IMG/VR virus record: IMGVR_UViG_3300034220_000001
Coordinates: 1-37,895 of that record
Length of the DNA: 37,895 nucleotides
Source: a virus
Strand: one strand, 5' to 3'
Of this stretch, positions 1,313-37,044 are shown piece after piece. The stretch's first letter is position 1, and every line of letters starts with the position of its first letter. The notes under the pieces were generated by a model. That model searched no databases and was not told the DNA's origin. It saw nothing but the letters and a program-made list of their open reading frames with translations. The position numbers and the translations under genes were made by a program.

Positions 1313-3142
1313 ATTTATCTAAATAAACCCACCGAAGAATATTGGTTAATTGACATAGAAACAGACGGCCTTGATCCCAAGGTTATCTGGTGCATGTGTG
1401 CGATCAACCTCGTTACCGGTCAAGAACTAACGTTCACCGATCCAAAAACAATAAGGGAGTGGATTGATCTCCAACTCACCAGAAAATGTGTCTTCGTCGG
1501 ACATAACTTACTCTCATTCGACGTCCCTGTTCTCAACCGTTTGGTTGGTACTCGGATTCCTGTTAGTCGTGTTATTGACACCTTTATTCTTTCTATGCTG
1601 TATTCTCCCGGGTTGGCTGGCGGCCATAGTCTCGAAGCGTGGGGAGGTCGACTAGGATTCCCAAAGACCGAGTTTAGTGATTGGAGTTGCTTGTCTGATG
1701 ACATGGTTCGTTACTGTCTTAACGATTGCCGGGTTAACGTTCGTCTATGGCTTCGCCTTTCTGATCGCATGCGAGCTGTTGGTTTCAGTGATCGATCGTG
1801 TGAGCTTGAACACCGAGCGTGGGCCATTATCCGCAGACAAAGACTCGACGGTTTCCAGATTGACGTACCCCGAGCCTACGAACTTTACACAGAAATTCGT
1901 GAACTCGAACGAAAGTTAAAAGATGAAATCTATGAGCACTGGCCTCCCGTCCTACAGGTTGTCAAACGCTTTGCGAAAGCACGCAAGGCTAATGGCGATT
2001 ACTGTGCGAACTATGAACGACATCTTACTGAGTACCCAGAGCTTCGTCACACCGACGACGGAGGATATGAAGCACTTGATTGGATTGAGTTCAACCTTGG
2101 AAGCCCAAAACAACGAGTTGAAAAACTGCTTGAACTCGGTTGGAAACCTCGAGAGTTCACACCAAAAGGAAGTCCTAAGCCGACTAAAAAGGGAGATTTA
2201 AGTCCCAGCCTTAAAGAGTTTATTGAAGAAGTTCCAAACGAAGCTGTTAAAAAGCTTGCAGAGTGGATTGCTATCAACGCTCGTGGTAACATGGTTAGTA
2301 ACTGGCTTGATTTGATTGATAAGGATGGAAGACTTCATGGAAACTTATGGCTTGCTGGCTCACTTCGTTATCGTCACGATAAGCCTAACACTGCTAATAT
2401 ACCCGCCGTTAGAGTTGATAAGGATGCGAAGCCGTTACTCGGAAGGAGCGGAGCCTTCACATACGAAGCTCGGGATGTTTGGACTTGTCGGGATGTTCGC
2501 AACCGGTCTCTCGTTGGCGTTGACGCTAAAGGTATTCAATTAAGAATTCTTGCTGATTATCTCAAAGACGACAAATTCACAGAAGCTATTCTTTCTGAAG
2601 ACCCTCATTCTGCAAATCAAAAGAACATGGGTCTGTCGACACGAGCGTTGACAAAGACCATCACGTACGCAACGTTGATGGGTGCTGGTGACGCTAAGAT
2701 TTCTAACGAAGCTAAGGTGTCACTTAAGGAAGCTAAGGCTGCAAAGTTGCTATTCTTTGAGCAGGTTCCGGGACTACCTAAGCTTATCAATCGGCTTAAG
2801 GAAGAGCTAACTCGAACTGGTAGAATAACTCTTTGCGATGGATCACGAGTGCTTGTTCCGTCAGATCACATGGTTATTCCGTATCTTCTGCAAGGCGACG
2901 AGAGTCGTATTATGAAGCAAGCAATGATCTTTGTTGACGAAGGAAAAAGACGTGGACGCATCGACGCAATTAAAGTTGGAGATATCCATGATGAATGGCA
3001 AACAGATGTCCTTAACGACCACATCGAGGCATTTAAGGTTTTGTGTTCTGAGTCATTTATCGCAGCCGGACGTAGCTTCGGTTACTCTATCCCGATTGAA
3101 TGCGACTCCAAAGTCGGACTCACGTGGGCAGAAACGCATTGA
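1313..3142 (+). CDS. Family A DNA polymerase with 3'-5' exonuclease (T7 gp5-like), probable ATT start
   Basis: This is the replicative polymerase. Numbered from 1313, exonuclease motif I DIETDGL is at residues 14-20, motif II GHNLLSFD near 63, and motif III YCLNDC near 134. Polymerase motif A DAKGIQLR is near 404, motif B RALTKTITYATLMGAG near 444, and motif C HDEW at 559-562. At 609 aa it is slightly shorter than T7 gp5. The first in-frame ATG, at 1394, would remove exonuclease motif I. The frame is open only back to 1310, and an ideal GGAGG at 1299-1303 lies 9 nt before an ATT at 1313, so translation probably starts at ATT. No in-frame ATG, GTG or TTG fits. Identity is certain; the start codon is inferred. 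Confidence 0.95.
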   Translation: MYLNKPTEEYWLIDIETDGLDPKVIWCMCAINLVTGQELTFTDPKTIREWIDLQLTRKCVFVGHNLLSFDVPVLNRLVGTRIPVSRVIDTFILSMLYSPGLAGGHSLEAWGGRLGFPKTEFSDWSCLSDDMVRYCLNDCRVNVRLWLRLSDRMRAVGFSDRSCELEHRAWAIIRRQRLDGFQIDVPRAYELYTEIRELERKLKDEIYEHWPPVLQVVKRFAKARKANGDYCANYERHLTEYPELRHTDDGGYEALDWIEFNLGSPKQRVEKLLELGWKPREFTPKGSPKPTKKGDLSPSLKEFIEEVPNEAVKKLAEWIAINARGNMVSNWLDLIDKDGRLHGNLWLAGSLRYRHDKPNTANIPAVRVDKDAKPLLGRSGAFTYEARDVWTCRDVRNRSLVGVDAKGIQLRILADYLKDDKFTEAILSEDPHSANQKNMGLSTRALTKTITYATLMGAGDAKISNEAKVSLKEAKAAKLLFFEQVPGLPKLINRLKEELTRTGRITLCDGSRVLVPSDHMVIPYLLQGDESRIMKQAMIFVDEGKRRGRIDAIKVGDIHDEWQTDVLNDHIEAFKVLCSESFIAAGRSFGYSIPIECDSKVGLTWAETH

Positions 3143-3186
3143 GGTTGATGAAACAGGTGATTGGGGTTGGAGTTGGTAAATAATTC

Positions 3187-3215
3187 TTGACAAAGTGAAT
3201 TAAACATGGTATAAT
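3187..3215 (+). promoter_or_regulatory. Consensus sigma-70 promoter upstream of the SSB region
   Basis: TTGACA at 3187-3192 and TATAAT at 3210-3215 are separated by 17 nt, a perfect match to the bacterial housekeeping consensus. Transcription would start near 3222, in the gap after DNA polymerase, and read the small acidic gene, the SSB and the nuclease genes. It would be used by host RNA polymerase. Confidence 0.85.
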
Positions 3216-3237
3216 TATTGTAGAAAGGATAGGAACC

Positions 3238-3519
3238 ATGCCTTTCTTTGTGGTACTACGACAAACAATCAACCTTAAGGAACTAAAAAAGATGAGTGAA
3301 GCACTAGATCGACTGACGAACGAAGTTGAACAGAGCCGAGCAGCTACCGATAGCGTTTTGACTCTTGTTCAGGGACTTGCCGATCAGATTCGAGAAGCAG
3401 TTGACAACGAAGATGATGATGCGTTGATCGCACTTGCAGATGATCTTGATGAACAGCAGGCTCGAATTGCTGAAGCAGTTACTGCTAATACTCCACAGGC
3501 AGAAACACCGACAGCGTAA
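3238..3519 (+). CDS. Small acidic helical phage protein (93 aa)
   Basis: This is the first gene after the promoter at 3187. An ATG at 3238 follows AAGGAT/AGGA at 3225-3234. A second ATG at 3292, after AAGGA near 3278, would give a 75-aa form beginning MSEALDRLTNEVEQ, which resembles the usual start of this kind of phage protein. The chain is rich in Glu, Asp, Gln and Ala, predicted helical or coiled-coil, and ends with a Pro/Thr/Ala tail (NTPQAETPTA). Proteins of this pattern are common near capsid or replication genes in tailed phages, but I know of no established function. The choice between the two starts is open. Confidence 0.75.
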   Translation: MPFFVVLRQTINLKELKKMSEALDRLTNEVEQSRAATDSVLTLVQGLADQIREAVDNEDDDALIALADDLDEQQARIAEAVTANTPQAETPTA

Positions 3520-3552
3520 CAACTAGACGTGTCAGCGAAAGAAGGTGGAAGG

Positions 3553-3636
3553 ATGAAAACCTACATACTTCTTACGGCGGGTGAAAGTCCCGCCATTTTT
3601 GACAGTGAGAAAGAAAGACGAGAAATTGGCAACTAA
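3553..3636 (+). CDS. Candidate 27-codon leader ORF upstream of SSB
   Basis: An ATG at 3553, directly after GGTGGAAGG, opens a 27-codon frame starting MKTYILLTAGESPAIF and ending with TAA at 3634-3636, just inside the SSB gene. The frame contains the whole GGCGGG/CCCGCC hairpin with its T-tract. A translated leader spanning a terminator-like hairpin is the classical layout of an attenuator, and the overlap with the SSB start would allow translational coupling. It could instead be a chance frame; there is no homology argument. Confidence 0.4.
   Translation: MKTYILLTAGESPAIFDSEKERREIGN
3576..3600 (+). terminator. Terminator-like hairpin with TGAAAGT loop before SSB
   Basis: GGCGGG (3576-3581) pairs with CCCGCC (3589-3594) around the loop TGAAAGT, and is followed by a run of five T (3596-3600). 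It looks like an intrinsic terminator or attenuator lying between the promoter at 3187 and the SSB gene. Two hairpins with nearly the same loop lie just after the SSB gene. Confidence 0.55.
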
Positions 3637-4183
3637 AGAAATTCATTATCTTCGTGGCAAGCTTCATTGGACTAAGGTCCTCGGCGATCCTGTCGACAAC
3701 TACGGTAAGGATGGCAAGGAGTGGGTTTTCGACCTAGCCCTAGACGCTGACGGTGTTAAGCAGGTCAAGAGTATCAAGGTTAACGGTAAGCCTGCACTGA
3801 CGATAAAGAATAAGGGTGACGATCGCGGTGACTTTGTGACGTTCAAGCAGAAGTACCGTGAGCTACCGAACGGTAAGTTTACGACTGCTCCTAAGGTTGC
3901 TGACGCAACTGGTACTGCTTGGGATCAGAACACGAAGATTGGCAACGGTTCAGACGCAGACGTCAAGTTTGAAGTTGTTGACTACGGCAAGACAATGTAC
4001 GCTGGTATTTATCCTCGAGCAATTCGAGTCCTTAAGCACGTAGCTTATGCTGAACAGGACTTCTCACCTTTGTCTGAAGATGATAAGTTCTTCAAGAAGG
4101 CTTCGGATAGCGAAACTCCTTTTGATTCTTACGGTGGTCACACAGCATCTGACGAAGATGAATTTGATGATGTTCCCGTTTAA
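3626..4183 (+). CDS. Single-stranded DNA-binding protein (T7 gp2.5-like)
   Basis: The product (about 185 aa from TTG 3626) starts MATKEIHYLRGKLHWTKVLG, has a KEWVFDLALD strand, and ends in a strongly acidic tail (ASDEDEFDDVPV). This is the architecture of phage gp2.5-type OB-fold SSBs, whose acidic C-terminus contacts polymerase and helicase. It sits between DNA polymerase and the recombination nucleases, as expected. The start is uncertain: GTG at 3605 or TTG at 3626 are candidates. An upstream GTG at 3581 is rejected because it lies inside the hairpin. The gene is bracketed by related hairpins that may control its dosage. Confidence 0.82.
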   Translation: MATKEIHYLRGKLHWTKVLGDPVDNYGKDGKEWVFDLALDADGVKQVKSIKVNGKPALTIKNKGDDRGDFVTFKQKYRELPNGKFTTAPKVADATGTAWDQNTKIGNGSDADVKFEVVDYGKTMYAGIYPRAIRVLKHVAYAEQDFSPLSEDDKFFKKASDSETPFDSYGGHTASDEDEFDDVPV

Positions 4184-34229: not shown

Positions 34230-34502
34230 TTAAGCTCTTCCTGCTTTCTTATTTCGTTTAAAAGATCGGTTCTTGGCTTTAGACTGAACAGCCAAATTAG
34301 AGCTGCTGTTGTTTGCTGTATTGTTGTTTTTGTGGGCTACGTCTTTGCCGTCGCCTTTTCGAACGCGCCCAGCTTTAATCATCTTTGCGCGAGCTGCGTT
34401 ACGCTGCGCTCGTCTCTTCTTTTGCTCGGGCTTTCGATTATATTTAGCCTGAGCAGCTTGACGAGCAGCCGTGTTCTTTTGAGAGTTTGGTCCTGTTGCC
34501 AT
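34230..34502 (-). CDS. Basic HNH-like small protein in the terminase cassette (90 aa)
   Basis: This very basic protein (many Lys, Arg, Gln, Asn) ends with GKDVAHKNNNTANNSSSNLA followed by an NRSFKRNKKAGR end. The order D-x-x-H-K-N, N-N, S-N-L and N-R-S-F recalls the second half of HNH nuclease folds, although the usual first His of the motif is hard to place. HNH proteins are often coded next to terminases and aid packaging. It could instead be a plain DNA-binding protein. Confidence 0.55.
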   Translation of the reverse strand: MATGPNSQKNTAARQAAQAKYNRKPEQKKRRAQRNAARAKMIKAGRVRKGDGKDVAHKNNNTANNSSSNLAVQSKAKNRSFKRNKKAGRA

Positions 34503-35038
34503 TACTTAACCAATCGAATTCGAGAAAGATCGTCAGCAAGCTGTGCTGCGTGAACGGTCTCAACTTTCAGATTTCCTGCTACTTCTTCTTTCGACGGACG
34601 ACCGCGAGAAGGAGCTTTGCTCATCTTACGATAGTTCTTGTCAGCAAGGTACTTCGCAGCTTGAAGCTGAACGGCTGGACTTACGTCCTCAACGCCGTCG
34701 CTGTACATGCGAATAGCTGCTAGACCTTCGGACGACAGCTTAGCGTCGAGTTCGATGTCCCACTGTTCCTTCGCTTCTGCGAACCAGCTGCACTTGTTAA
34801 GCATCAACCAGTGACTGTAGTCTTCGAGGTAGCGAGTAGCAAGCTGATAACCTGTCGGATCACCGAGTTCAACGTAGACGCGACGAAGGTTAATCAAACC
34901 CGGTCGATCGTGGTGGAGCGTGAACATCGGATCGCACGCTCGCTCGTGAACAGCCATCTTCGACTGCTCCTCCCAGAAAAGCATGCGAGTCATGCGGGAA
35001 CCAGAGGCTGTTCGGAATTTGTTTGAGATTCGGCTCAT
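34502..35038 (-). CDS. Terminase small subunit-like protein
   Basis: The 178-aa product ends with YLADKNYRKMSKAPSRGRPS then KEEVAGNLKVE and a DLSRIRLVK tail. The RGRPSKEEV element is typical of phage small terminase or DNA-packaging subunits, and large terminase is a few genes downstream in the same operon. The middle has an aromatic-rich helical region. The ATG at 35038 is only 6 nt from the -10 box of a consensus promoter, so the message is probably leaderless; I see no Shine-Dalgarno site. Confidence 0.75.
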   Translation of the reverse strand: MSRISNKFRTASGSRMTRMLFWEEQSKMAVHERACDPMFTLHHDRPGLINLRRVYVELGDPTGYQLATRYLEDYSHWLMLNKCSWFAEAKEQWDIELDAKLSSEGLAAIRMYSDGVEDVSPAVQLQAAKYLADKNYRKMSKAPSRGRPSKEEVAGNLKVETVHAAQLADDLSRIRLVK

Positions 35039-35044
35039 ATGTGT

Positions 35045-35073
35045 ATTATATCAGATTTAGGAAGAGTTGTCAA
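35045..35073 (-). promoter_or_regulatory. Consensus late promoter for the virion operon
   Basis: On the minus strand TTGACA (35073-35068) and TATAAT (35050-35045) are 17 nt apart, a perfect consensus. Six bases separate TATAAT from the ATG of the small terminase-like gene, so transcription would begin at or next to the start codon. The -35 lies in one arm of a 10-bp inverted repeat shared with the opposite promoter. Confidence 0.85.
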
Positions 35074-35115
35074 GCTTTATTTTTAGAAGCCGCTCTTTAA
35101 GAAAGAGCTTGACAA
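35067..35115. repeat. Inverted repeat holding both divergent -35 boxes
   Basis: TTGTCAAGCT (35067-35076) and AGCTTGACAA (35106-35115) are a perfect 10-bp inverted repeat, each arm containing one TTGACA box. An inner GCTCTTT/AAAGAGC repeat lies at 35092-35108. The arrangement could be an operator for one dimeric regulator controlling both directions, or simply two mirrored promoters. Confidence 0.7.
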
Positions 35116-35137
35116 ATGTTTCTATTTCGTGTATAAT
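35109..35137 (+). promoter_or_regulatory. Consensus promoter for the noncoding region
   Basis: TTGACA (35109-35114) and TATAAT (35132-35137) are 17 nt apart, a perfect match. The start would be near 35144. No gene with a ribosome site follows for 1.3 kb, so its product is RNA: either a short transcript ending at 35352 or, with readthrough, the long structured region. Confidence 0.85.
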
Positions 35138-35143
35138 GTACGT

Positions 35144-35352
35144 ATGAGATGGGGAGACCCGTTGATTGGACGTTGGCCTTCCTCCTGCTTCGGCGGTTTA
35201 AAAGGGGGGTTTGGGGGGATGTCCCTTCTTACAGTTTAATTTCTTAAGTAGTTAATCTTTTTAAACTCACTACGTTCGGGGCCTTTTCGTTCCCGAAAAG
35301 ATTTGCTTCGCAAATGCCCGGCTTCTCGCGGTTTTCGTGGGAGGCCTTTTTT
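35144..35352 (+). ncRNA. Candidate short untranslated transcript
   Basis: From the promoter at 35109 to a clear terminator at 35320-35352 is about 210 nt without a convincing ORF. The interval contains CTTTTCG/CGAAAAG and ATTTGC/GCAAAT hairpins and two G6 runs (35204-35209 and 35213-35218). It may be a small RNA, a leader whose termination is controlled, or part of a packaging or end signal. No family is recognised. Confidence 0.4.
35320..35352 (+). terminator. Intrinsic terminator within the noncoding region
   Basis: GGCTTCTCGCG (35320-35330) pairs over 11 bp, with G-U wobbles, to CGTGGGAGGCC (35336-35346) around the loop GTTTT, and six T follow. It separates the promoter at 35109 from the large structured region unless it is read through. 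Confidence 0.7.
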
Positions 35353-35529
35353 CGTGTCTTCGTAAGGGGGGCTGAAGATTGGCTTGAATTTCTTCGAGAT
35401 ATTTTTAGGGGGGGTTATTGCAAGAAAGAGCCCACCCCCAACCCCCTCCCCCGGGGTCTTCGTGATGTTTCCTCGATGTTTTCTGACATTCCTTCTTGCC
35501 TTCTGTTTATGCGAGTTATCCGCAGTAGC

Positions 35530-36340
35530 AAGTGACAATACATCATCTCATTGATATTGCAAGACATTATCACCGACGTCTACGTCTGCAATCTTGGCAC
35601 AGACCTTGCAATCACGTGCGCGTGGGTTCCCTTTAGCTCGCGGGATAGGTGTCTTACTTGACTAACACACATCCCGAAATAAATTTGTTCGGTGGACGGA
35701 ACCCCTCGTCTCAACGTCCGTTATGTATTCGTGGCTTCCAGCTACTGACCGGTTCCAGCGGACGAAAGAAAGTTTGCGGAACCAATCGATCAGTCGCTAG
35801 TTATCACACTAACAGTCACCGTCCAACGGTGGCGCTCTTAGGTCCGGCCGCTTGCTCTAGGGTAAATGATGCGTCGGCAAAGCCTGAACGATCTGGATTA
35901 GCAACCGGATGCGGAGCGTCGGACGACTGACAACAAGGCGGATGCTAGTCAAAGGACGTACAGTTAGAAGCTGTCCGTTGCACGATCTTTTCACGTACCT
36001 TGAAATAGGTGCGGGGCGTGAGGCTAGACGATGTGAAGCGTTATCCGTAGCAGGATAGCGTTAACTGGAAAACATTCCGAGTATGCCTGCGACTACTCGC
36101 CAAAGAGTAGCGACGGGGCGCGGGGAAAACGCTAAGTCCTCAAGTAATTCTTGAGCACTGAACCGTTCGTAATGGACGGAGCCCCCGGGTCTGTGTTGAG
36201 AGTGCAACGCCTCCAAAGAGTAGCACGGACTAGAAAGAACACACGTGTTAGGTACGTGTTTAAAGATTAACCTTGTTCAAGATAAGGGCACGGTGTACGG
36301 TAGGTTGTTTAATCTATCATGCGCCGTGCCTTTTTCTTTA
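35530..36340 (+). ncRNA. Large structured noncoding RNA candidate (GOLLD/ROOL-like)
   Basis: About 800 nt with no plausible gene but dense helices. Stems include ATTGCAAG/CTTGCAAT (35556-35563/35605-35612), GTCTG/CAGAC nested inside it, CGGGAT/ATCCCG (35641-35646/35671-35676), GGTTCC/GGAACC (35751-35756/35778-35783), CACCG/CGGTG (35817-35831), a 10-bp AGCGTTATCC/GGATAGCGTT (36037-36062), CTACTC/GAGTAG (36093-36110), CTCAAG/CTTGAG (36139-36155), CCGTTC/GGACGG (36163-36179) and GTCTGTG/CACGGAC (36189-36230). It ends in a strong terminator. Size, isolation in a phage intergenic region and ornate structure resemble GOLLD and ROOL RNAs, but I cannot match a consensus by eye. The 5' end is uncertain: its own promoter was not found, and the consensus one at 35109 is separated by a terminator. 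Confidence 0.65.
36287..36339 (+). terminator. Terminator of the large RNA, with pseudoknot potential
   Basis: GGCACGG (36287-36293) pairs with CCGTGCC (36324-36330), followed by TTTTTCTTT. The 30-nt loop contains TTAATCT (36309-36315), complementary to AGATTAA (36264-36270) upstream, with an added CC/GG (36271-36272/36303-36304), which would form an H-type pseudoknot. Confidence 0.8.
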
Positions 36341-36361
36341 CCCTTTTCCCATCGTTGATGC

Positions 36362-36417
36362 GAGGCATGATGCAGGTTTACAAATAGGGACGCCTTGCCT
36401 GATTTCAATCATGCCTC
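36362..36417 (+). repeat. Inverted repeat in the leader of the 194-aa gene
   Basis: GAGGCATGAT (36362-36371) and ATCATGCCTC (36408-36417) form a perfect 10-bp inverted repeat with a 36-nt loop, between the RNA terminator and the gene at 36460. It may be an operator or leader hairpin. A loose promoter-like pair (TTGATG near 36354, TTACAAAT near 36378) lies inside it. Confidence 0.5.
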
Positions 36418-36459
36418 ACACCAGCAATGGGCTGGACAACCGACACTCGGAGAACCTCC

Positions 36460-37044
36460 ATGTCACTCAAGATCATTCAAAAGAAAATTCGTTGGATTGG
36501 TAGCACAACTGCCAAGGTCAACGGCGTCATCCACGAAACTGCGCTGCTCATCTGCGCTCACACAATCGAGTACAACGACTGTTCGACGGCGAAGGATTTG
36601 ATTAACGCTATGCCTGCTTCGATGCGTCGGACGATGCTCAAGCTTTGGTTCGAAACCTTTACGCCCATCCGTTTCCAAATGAAGGACGGGCTAGCTATCA
36701 AGGTCGGCATGCTCAAGCCGGACGCTAAGACTTACACGCCGTGGGATGTCGTCAACGGCGAAGCCAAACCTTTCTATGAGCTTGCAGAAGAAAACCCTGA
36801 AAAGGGTAATCTCACGTTCGACAAGCTACTCGCCCTCATTCAGGCTCAAGTGAAGCGCGCCGAAAAGAGCGTCGAAGAAGGCAAGGTCGAAGAGAAGGAC
36901 CGCGACAGCATCTTGCTGGTGGCACACACTCTCAAGGGCCTCAACTTCAAGCGTGTCACACCTGCTAACGACGCCAACAACGTTGAGTTGTTCCCAAGCG
37001 ACGTCGTGCAGTCGCCGGTCCCAGCTATCGCAGCGGCGGCGTAA
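36460..37044 (+). CDS. Phage early-region hypothetical protein (194 aa)
   Basis: The ATG at 36460 follows GGAG by 7 nt. The product begins MSLKIIQKKIRWIGSTTAKV and contains AMPASMRRTMLKLWFETFTP and a C-terminal charged helical region ending in an Ala-rich tail. Proteins with this IQKKI...MPASMRR pattern are frequent in the early region of podophages and siphophages of Proteobacteria, but no function is established to my knowledge. An upstream ATG at 36427 has no ribosome site. Confidence 0.85.
   Translation: MSLKIIQKKIRWIGSTTAKVNGVIHETALLICAHTIEYNDCSTAKDLINAMPASMRRTMLKLWFETFTPIRFQMKDGLAIKVGMLKPDAKTYTPWDVVNGEAKPFYELAEENPEKGNLTFDKLLALIQAQVKRAEKSVEEGKVEEKDRDSILLVAHTLKGLNFKRVTPANDANNVELFPSDVVQSPVPAIAAAA

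Follow-up and report, generated by a model that had tools for sequence, protein, structure and literature searches.

A candidate large structured noncoding RNA at the predicted left genome end of a phage near the Zobellviridae

Background

To our knowledge, few giant structured RNAs have been described from phages, and no function has been established for any of them. GOLLD forms a closed 14-mer RNA nanocage. Both GOLLD and ROOL assemble into RNA-only cages and often lie close to tRNA islands (PMC12286853). Phage ICP1 produces an abundant, ORF-less RNA of ~800 nt that sits at the lysis cluster and was compared by its authors to GOLLD and ROOL (PMC7567579).

Here we describe a candidate RNA of comparable size in the linear IMG/VR contig IMGVR_UViG_3300034220_000001, which was analysed over its full 37,895 bases ('the window'). 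Like GOLLD (~800 nt), it lies in a phage context, lacks an ORF and is predicted to form elaborate local stems; unlike GOLLD, it has no covariance-model match and no tRNA neighbours, and it sits at the predicted physical left end of the genome, with a sigma-54-type element ahead of it. ROOL (600-700 nt) is likewise phage-encoded and has no known protein partner, but the window RNA does not match its covariance model. The ICP1 transcript is also large and noncoding and comes from a phage region that lacks ORFs; it differs in belonging to another phage and in lying at the lysis cluster rather than at a genome end. The window RNA therefore resembles GOLLD and ROOL in size and context, while membership in either family is not supported. 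An RNA tied, in several related phages, to a defined place, a predicted promoter type and a constant neighbour (phrog_1448) would be easy to test and would open a new route to the function of giant phage RNAs. No paper on noncoding RNA of the Zobellviridae was found in the literature searched.

Phage affiliation and layout of the locus

The large terminase of the window phage is 59-60% identical to the terminases of ICBM1, CRP-5 and P12053L and 62.5% identical to that of SIO1 over 91% of its length. The phage also encodes a B12-dependent ribonucleotide reductase, whose best likeness is to Roseobacter and Lentibacter phages, together with a family A DNA polymerase, portal, capsid and internal virion protein. 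These gene matches therefore place the phage, as judged from its proteins, near the Zobellviridae/Cobavirinae. The structural genes run leftward and end at 35,038, the early genes run rightward from 36,460, and the 1.42 kb between them (35,039-36,459) is a noncoding stretch that contains the RNA (Table 1). Of the two genes that border the gap, the one in small-terminase position belongs to a family with 87 phage records (phrog_8035), and the other, phrog_1448, starts ~124 nt beyond the end of the RNA terminator; structure prediction for its protein was uninformative (pLDDT 42).

Table 1. Coordinates of features at the locus (positions in the window)
Feature	Position	Strand	Remarks
phrog_8035 protein, small-terminase position	34502..35038	-	E 3e-25; last gene before the right end
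Perfect sigma-70 promoter (12/12) for the leftward structural genes	35045..35073	-	
Perfect sigma-70 promoter (35109-35137) and terminator (35320-35346)	35109..35346	+	Possible separate RNA of ~200 nt
Genome-end motif GAGATATTTTTAGG...TTATTGCAAGA...CCCCCAACCCCCTCCCCC	35396..35452	+	Aligned by eye with the ICBM1 and ICBM2 repeat starts
Sigma-54-type promoter (-24/-12) TTGGCACAGACCTTGCA	35594..35610	+	Full match, directly upstream of the structured stretch
Candidate large structured noncoding RNA, ~720 nt	35616..36336	+	No coding signal; fold z -6.5; no Rfam family
Imperfect palindrome GTGTCTTACTTGACTAACACAC	35649..35670	+	Hairpin-capable; overlaps a weak TTGACT -35; same place in L018
Best-predicted 3' domain	36037..36187	+	Local hairpins, two within a closing stem; source of covariance model R2
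Intrinsic terminator	36284..36336	+	14 bp + 8 bp stem (22 pairs, 36284-36333), GTTT loop, T-run
phrog_1448 protein, first gene after the RNA	36460..37044	+	E 1e-18; same neighbour in L018 and MW202697

A noncoding and highly folded stretch

An earlier, sequence-only reading had pictured 35530-36340 as about 800 nt without a convincing gene, packed with local stems and closed by a strong intrinsic terminator, and had taken it for a large structured noncoding RNA of a phage. Our analysis upholds each of these points and moves the limits to ~35,592/35,620 and 36,336, the 5' end near 35,620 being predicted from the position of the sigma-54-type promoter. Codon-usage log-odds, trained on 16 genes of the window, are negative in all six frames for every 210-nt segment starting from 34,962 to 36,327; values of about +0.2 to +0.47 bits per codon are reached in the genes on either side. 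Among the ORFs tested in the gap (up to 100 aa), the best PHROG match reaches only E 0.14.

The stretch 35530-36340 folds better than all of its shuffles, with z -4.5 on the plus and -3.0 on the minus strand, and the trimmed RNA (35616-36340) gives z -6.5 and -2.7, respectively (40 shuffles). Nine coding segments of 700 nt, taken from this phage as controls, range from -0.4 to -2.0 on their sense strands. The 3' half carries the strongest signal, with 200-nt segments that go down to z -6.7, partly owing to the terminator, and the 5' half a weaker one (z -0.2 to -2.6 in sliding windows). Local stems predicted with high probability, their loops 3-8 nt long, lie at 35815-35833, 36037-36062 (10 bp), 36093-36110, 36139-36155 and 36163-36179, and the terminator helices have probabilities of 0.97-0.98. 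Hundreds of nucleotides long, noncoding, with excess structure on one strand and a terminator of its own, the stretch has the general features of a large structured phage noncoding RNA. Judged by these coding and folding models, 35,592-36,336 makes no protein and very probably encodes a large folded RNA.

The same reading had suggested that the RNA may be a divergent member of GOLLD or ROOL or else a new class. The first of these, to be sought with Infernal among the Rfam models of GOLLD, ROOL, OLE and HEARO, was not borne out. An Rfam scan of the window gives no family at the gathering threshold, and within 35000-36500 GOLLD (RF02032), ROOL (RF03087), OLE and HEARO have no covariance-model match even at E up to 10; the matches seen there are weak, below gathering and unrelated, such as to a staphylococcal sRNA and to microRNA families. 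Group I/II introns, RNase P and tmRNA are likewise without a match to Rfam models or by ARAGORN, in agreement with the earlier remark that no motif of group I introns, RNase P or tmRNA was visible, and ARAGORN finds no tRNA or tmRNA anywhere in the window. In the corresponding regions of the relatives described below, the sole Rfam match is a tRNA. Lacking an Rfam match at the gathering threshold, the RNA was rejected as a member of GOLLD, ROOL or another Rfam family. A divergent member might still be suspected from the similar size, the isolated ORF-less phage context and the many hairpins, but the failure to match at E up to 10, the location at the physical genome end and the lack of a tRNA nearby make this reading, already largely refuted by the covariance models, extremely improbable.

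Genome end and promoter elements

The terminal repeats of ICBM1 were mapped with PacBio reads (PMC6775973). The annotated repeat start of ICBM1 reads ...TAAATATTTTTGTGT up to the boundary and GTTGTACATACAGCAGGCCACCCCCTAACCCCCC beyond it, that of ICBM2 reads ATTGTACATACAGCAGGCTACCCCC, and the window has a matching layout at the genome-end motif, GAGATATTTTTAGGGGGGGTTATTGCAAGAAAGAGCCCACCCCCAACCCCCTCCCCC. The physical left end, or terminal repeat start, is therefore predicted near 35,417, and the RNA would accordingly be the first feature behind the terminal repeat. The motif is also present in L018, a related IMG/VR contig, and in MEP401 and MEP402, and a scan with the genome-end pattern recovered one further genome end, in L129, where the part of the contig that was read shows no RNA.

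The sigma-54-type element lies between the predicted genome end and the RNA. The pattern TGGCAYN5TTGCW matches once in the entire window (0.08 expected), at this site, and once each in L018 and in MW202697, a phage from Manatee Spring, in the same place and orientation (0.01 and 0.11 matches, respectively, would be expected across the entire locus). No gene for a phage-encoded sigma-54 activator was found in the record, so that a host activator would be needed. Several relatives carry sigma-54-like sites in the opposite orientation, and the element may therefore not be a promoter in every relative. The placement of the phage near the Zobellviridae/Cobavirinae, of its RNA first behind the predicted terminal repeat and of a putative sigma-54-type promoter upstream are new in this analysis.

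The rightward sigma-70 promoter is situated to the left of the genome end and has a terminator of its own downstream; it thus probably makes a different RNA of roughly 200 nt, and the same arrangement is visible in L018. This possible second RNA (35109-35346), just left of the genome end, contains a run, GGGGGGTTTGGGGGG, that is nearly complementary to CCCCCAACCCCC of the genome-end motif.

Relatives at the same locus

The hint of the sequence-only reading to search beside the gene in small-terminase position led to the relatives. In L018, phrog_8035 (43% identity), a 1.2-kb gap and phrog_1448 (38%) follow one another with the elements in the same order, and an nhmmer comparison of the two gaps gives an alignment (E 6e-8) that spans the promoter region and the 5' motif. 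MW202697 has genome-end C-runs, the sigma-54-type site, ~650 nt of G+C-richer sequence without an ORF, a terminator-like hairpin and phrog_1448. Both thus show the order of genome-end motif, sigma-54-type site, structured ORF-less stretch and phrog_1448. A structured left-end stretch is also found in G008, a 51.5-kb record with overlapping ends, and in PQ867841, which was found via phrog_1448 and whose stretch has an 80-85% relative in PQ867852. The plus-strand fold z is -4.5 in L018, -3.1 in MW202697, -8.2 in G008, -7.6 in PQ867841 and -10.4 in PQ867852, and in all six phages, weakly in MW202697, the signal is stronger on the plus than on the minus strand. In the left-end RNA set of Zobellviridae-like phages that we propose here, the RNA lies directly behind the motif that marks the start of the terminal repeat and ahead of the first early genes. 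The presence of such an RNA in every phage with phrog_1448 is ruled out by the Autographiviridae Cd1, BC and Babayka, whose phrog_1448 leaders are not consistently structured.

Direct evidence for RNA structure at this locus comes from the pair PQ867841/PQ867852. Their consensus fold has 78 unchanged, 18 one-sided and 21 compensatory pairs and no broken ones, and their single-sequence folds, which are free of alignment bias, retain 16 compensatory pairs as compared with 0-6 in slid controls. RNA structure is conserved at the locus in this one pair of phages. The earlier reading had named covariation among homologues as a check, and it is in this pair that covariation appears; the RNA of the pair is, however, not demonstrably homologous to that of the window. 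A fast-evolving spacer, with no specific RNA function beyond promoter and terminator, would account for the lack of sequence conservation between the RNA bodies of the window and L018, but it sits badly with structure far beyond chance at the same locus in six phages and with 21 compensatory pairs in the single alignable pair. In addition, compact phage genomes seldom retain 700 nt idle, and we consider such a spacer very improbable. The stems might instead be by-products of a DNA element by the genome end, such as a packaging site, a replication origin or a protein-binding array. The stretch does adjoin the genome-end motif, and in relatives, sigma-54-like sites (L063) and Fur-like boxes (L061, L066) form arrays near the left ends. 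On the other hand, the plus-strand signal is the stronger one in all six phages (weakly in MW202697), and the compensatory changes in PQ867841/PQ867852 include G-U pairs, which point to RNA; a DNA element is accordingly improbable.

Beyond this pair, homology of the RNA bodies was not detected. The best local alignment between the RNAs of the window and L018 is a 25-nt 5' motif (score 38, as compared with a maximum of 36.5 in 200 shuffles), beyond which no alignment or shared structure was found between the two bodies, and other RNA pairs among the phages align locally at chance level or at the borderline. A covariance model built on PQ867841/PQ867852 (R1) does not recover the window RNA, and one built on the 3' domain of the window RNA (R2) finds no relative; with these two models, no common RNA architecture emerges across the Zobellviridae-like left-end set. 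Searches of annotated phages with blastn gave no relative for the window or L018, MW202697 matched only itself, and single-protein scans for neighbours found none. The 13-mer AGTAGCGACGGGG, common to the window and L018, was dropped since its other matches in the viral scan were apparently coding chance matches. The window and L018 share position, promoter element, 5' motif and excess structure, and with the failure of alignment and of both models, common descent of their RNA bodies could not be established. As far as these comparisons go, the window RNA looks like a positionally conserved, fast-evolving RNA.

The Cobavirinae ICBM1, ICBM2, SIO1 and CRP-4 also have a left-end noncoding region just behind the terminal repeat. 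Unlike the window, this region has its own block of ~130 nt and no sigma-54-type element on inspection, and no phrog_1448 was found in the Cobavirinae records searched.

Possible roles of the RNA

The explanation we favour, and consider somewhat probable as a whole, is that the locus encodes a discrete, highly folded, early RNA of ~720 nt that acts in trans. The RNA would be the first rightward transcript behind the left terminal repeat, presumably made by host polymerase, which would start at the sigma-54-type promoter shortly after the DNA has entered the cell, and the terminator would stop it before the first early gene; since the terminator closes it ~124 nt before that gene, the unit would be discrete. 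It could then accumulate as a stable species and act as a structural RNA, perhaps in oligomeric form, that binds or sequesters a factor of the host or of the phage. By analogy, a structural role in trans is suspected for GOLLD and ROOL and is conceivable for the ~800-nt RNA of ICP1. Against this explanation stand covariation seen in a pair whose RNA is not demonstrably homologous to that of the window, the lack of alignable structure between the bodies of the window and L018 beyond the 25-nt motif, the failure to find a sigma-54 activator gene in the record, the reversed sigma-54-like sites of several relatives, and the constant location of the RNA ahead of early genes, which is where a leader would lie.

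The main rival is in fact a long structured 5' leader or attenuator acting in cis, in which co-transcriptional folding would let the terminator (36284-36333) decide on read-through into phrog_1448. The terminator stands directly before the first early gene, with no sigma-70 promoter detected between the two and a long hairpin (~36,349-36,430) preceding phrog_1448, and phrog_1448 lies downstream in five phages with such an RNA. T7-like phages, moreover, carry early leaders without coding sequence at their left ends. Like these leaders, the window RNA is the noncoding start of a rightward early unit behind the terminal repeat, but it differs in being closed by a terminator and in being much more structured. 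An attenuator of 700 nt would be large, no alternative antiterminator fold was identified, G008 has ~0.6 kb with small ORFs between the RNA and phrog_1448, and L018 has no clear terminator; a leader of phrog_1448 is therefore possible but, in our view, rather unlikely.

A broader extension of the favoured trans-acting RNA is that it represents a new class of giant phage RNA, found at the physical left end of Zobellviridae-like phages behind a host sigma-54-type promoter. Its members would share a function and would have diverged so fast as to retain only position, promoter and 5' motif, and they may be early structural RNAs that serve to take over the host or play a part at the genome ends (replication or packaging). 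We put this forward tentatively and with some doubt.

Other elements at the left ends and elsewhere

Several further observations were made along the way. The hairpin past the terminator and ahead of the start codon of phrog_1448 (window ~36349-36430) is long and imperfect, GAGGCATGAT...ATCATGCCTC. A tRNA gene (L107 37-110, minus strand) lies ~1.4 kb downstream of the left-end RNA of PQ867841; such tRNAs are common near GOLLD and ROOL. The ~130-nt noncoding block of the Cobavirinae, TCATCGGCAAGCAAACACCG...GAGCAAGCCCTAGCAA, is conserved and unannotated (L123 290-460, L125 415-575, L124 720-880 and L006 50-200). The left-end regions of related phages also contain arrays that resemble binding sites, namely four sigma-54-type sites in L063 (3793-3902) and five to seven Fur-like GAKAAYCATT sites in L061 (7819-8061) and L066 (5484-5706), which are perhaps decoys for host regulators.

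The palindrome GTGTCTTACTTGACTAACACAC lies ~40 nt downstream of the sigma-54-type site and is almost identical in L018. Versions of this 22-bp imperfect palindrome, GTGTATTACTTGACTAACACAC (window 35649-35670), occur twice in L095, an unrelated podovirus-like contig (12950-12971 and 12998-13019), and once in L096, a T4-like contig (3315-3336), where the palindrome overlaps the TTGACT-16-TATAAT promoter of a Bfd-like gene; recurrence in these two contigs by chance is unlikely. As a bacterial operator the GTGT...ACAC palindrome was rejected: a scan of one genome each for 85,000 species gave just three matches, all in Shewanella and in homologous, apparently coding sequence, and they were read as chance. 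The T4-like contig, in addition, has seven copies of AGGAGTCCCA (2690-3640), all on the same strand and spread over 0.85 kb, and these repeats surround a noncoding stretch of ~230 nt that is flanked by a promoter and a terminator.
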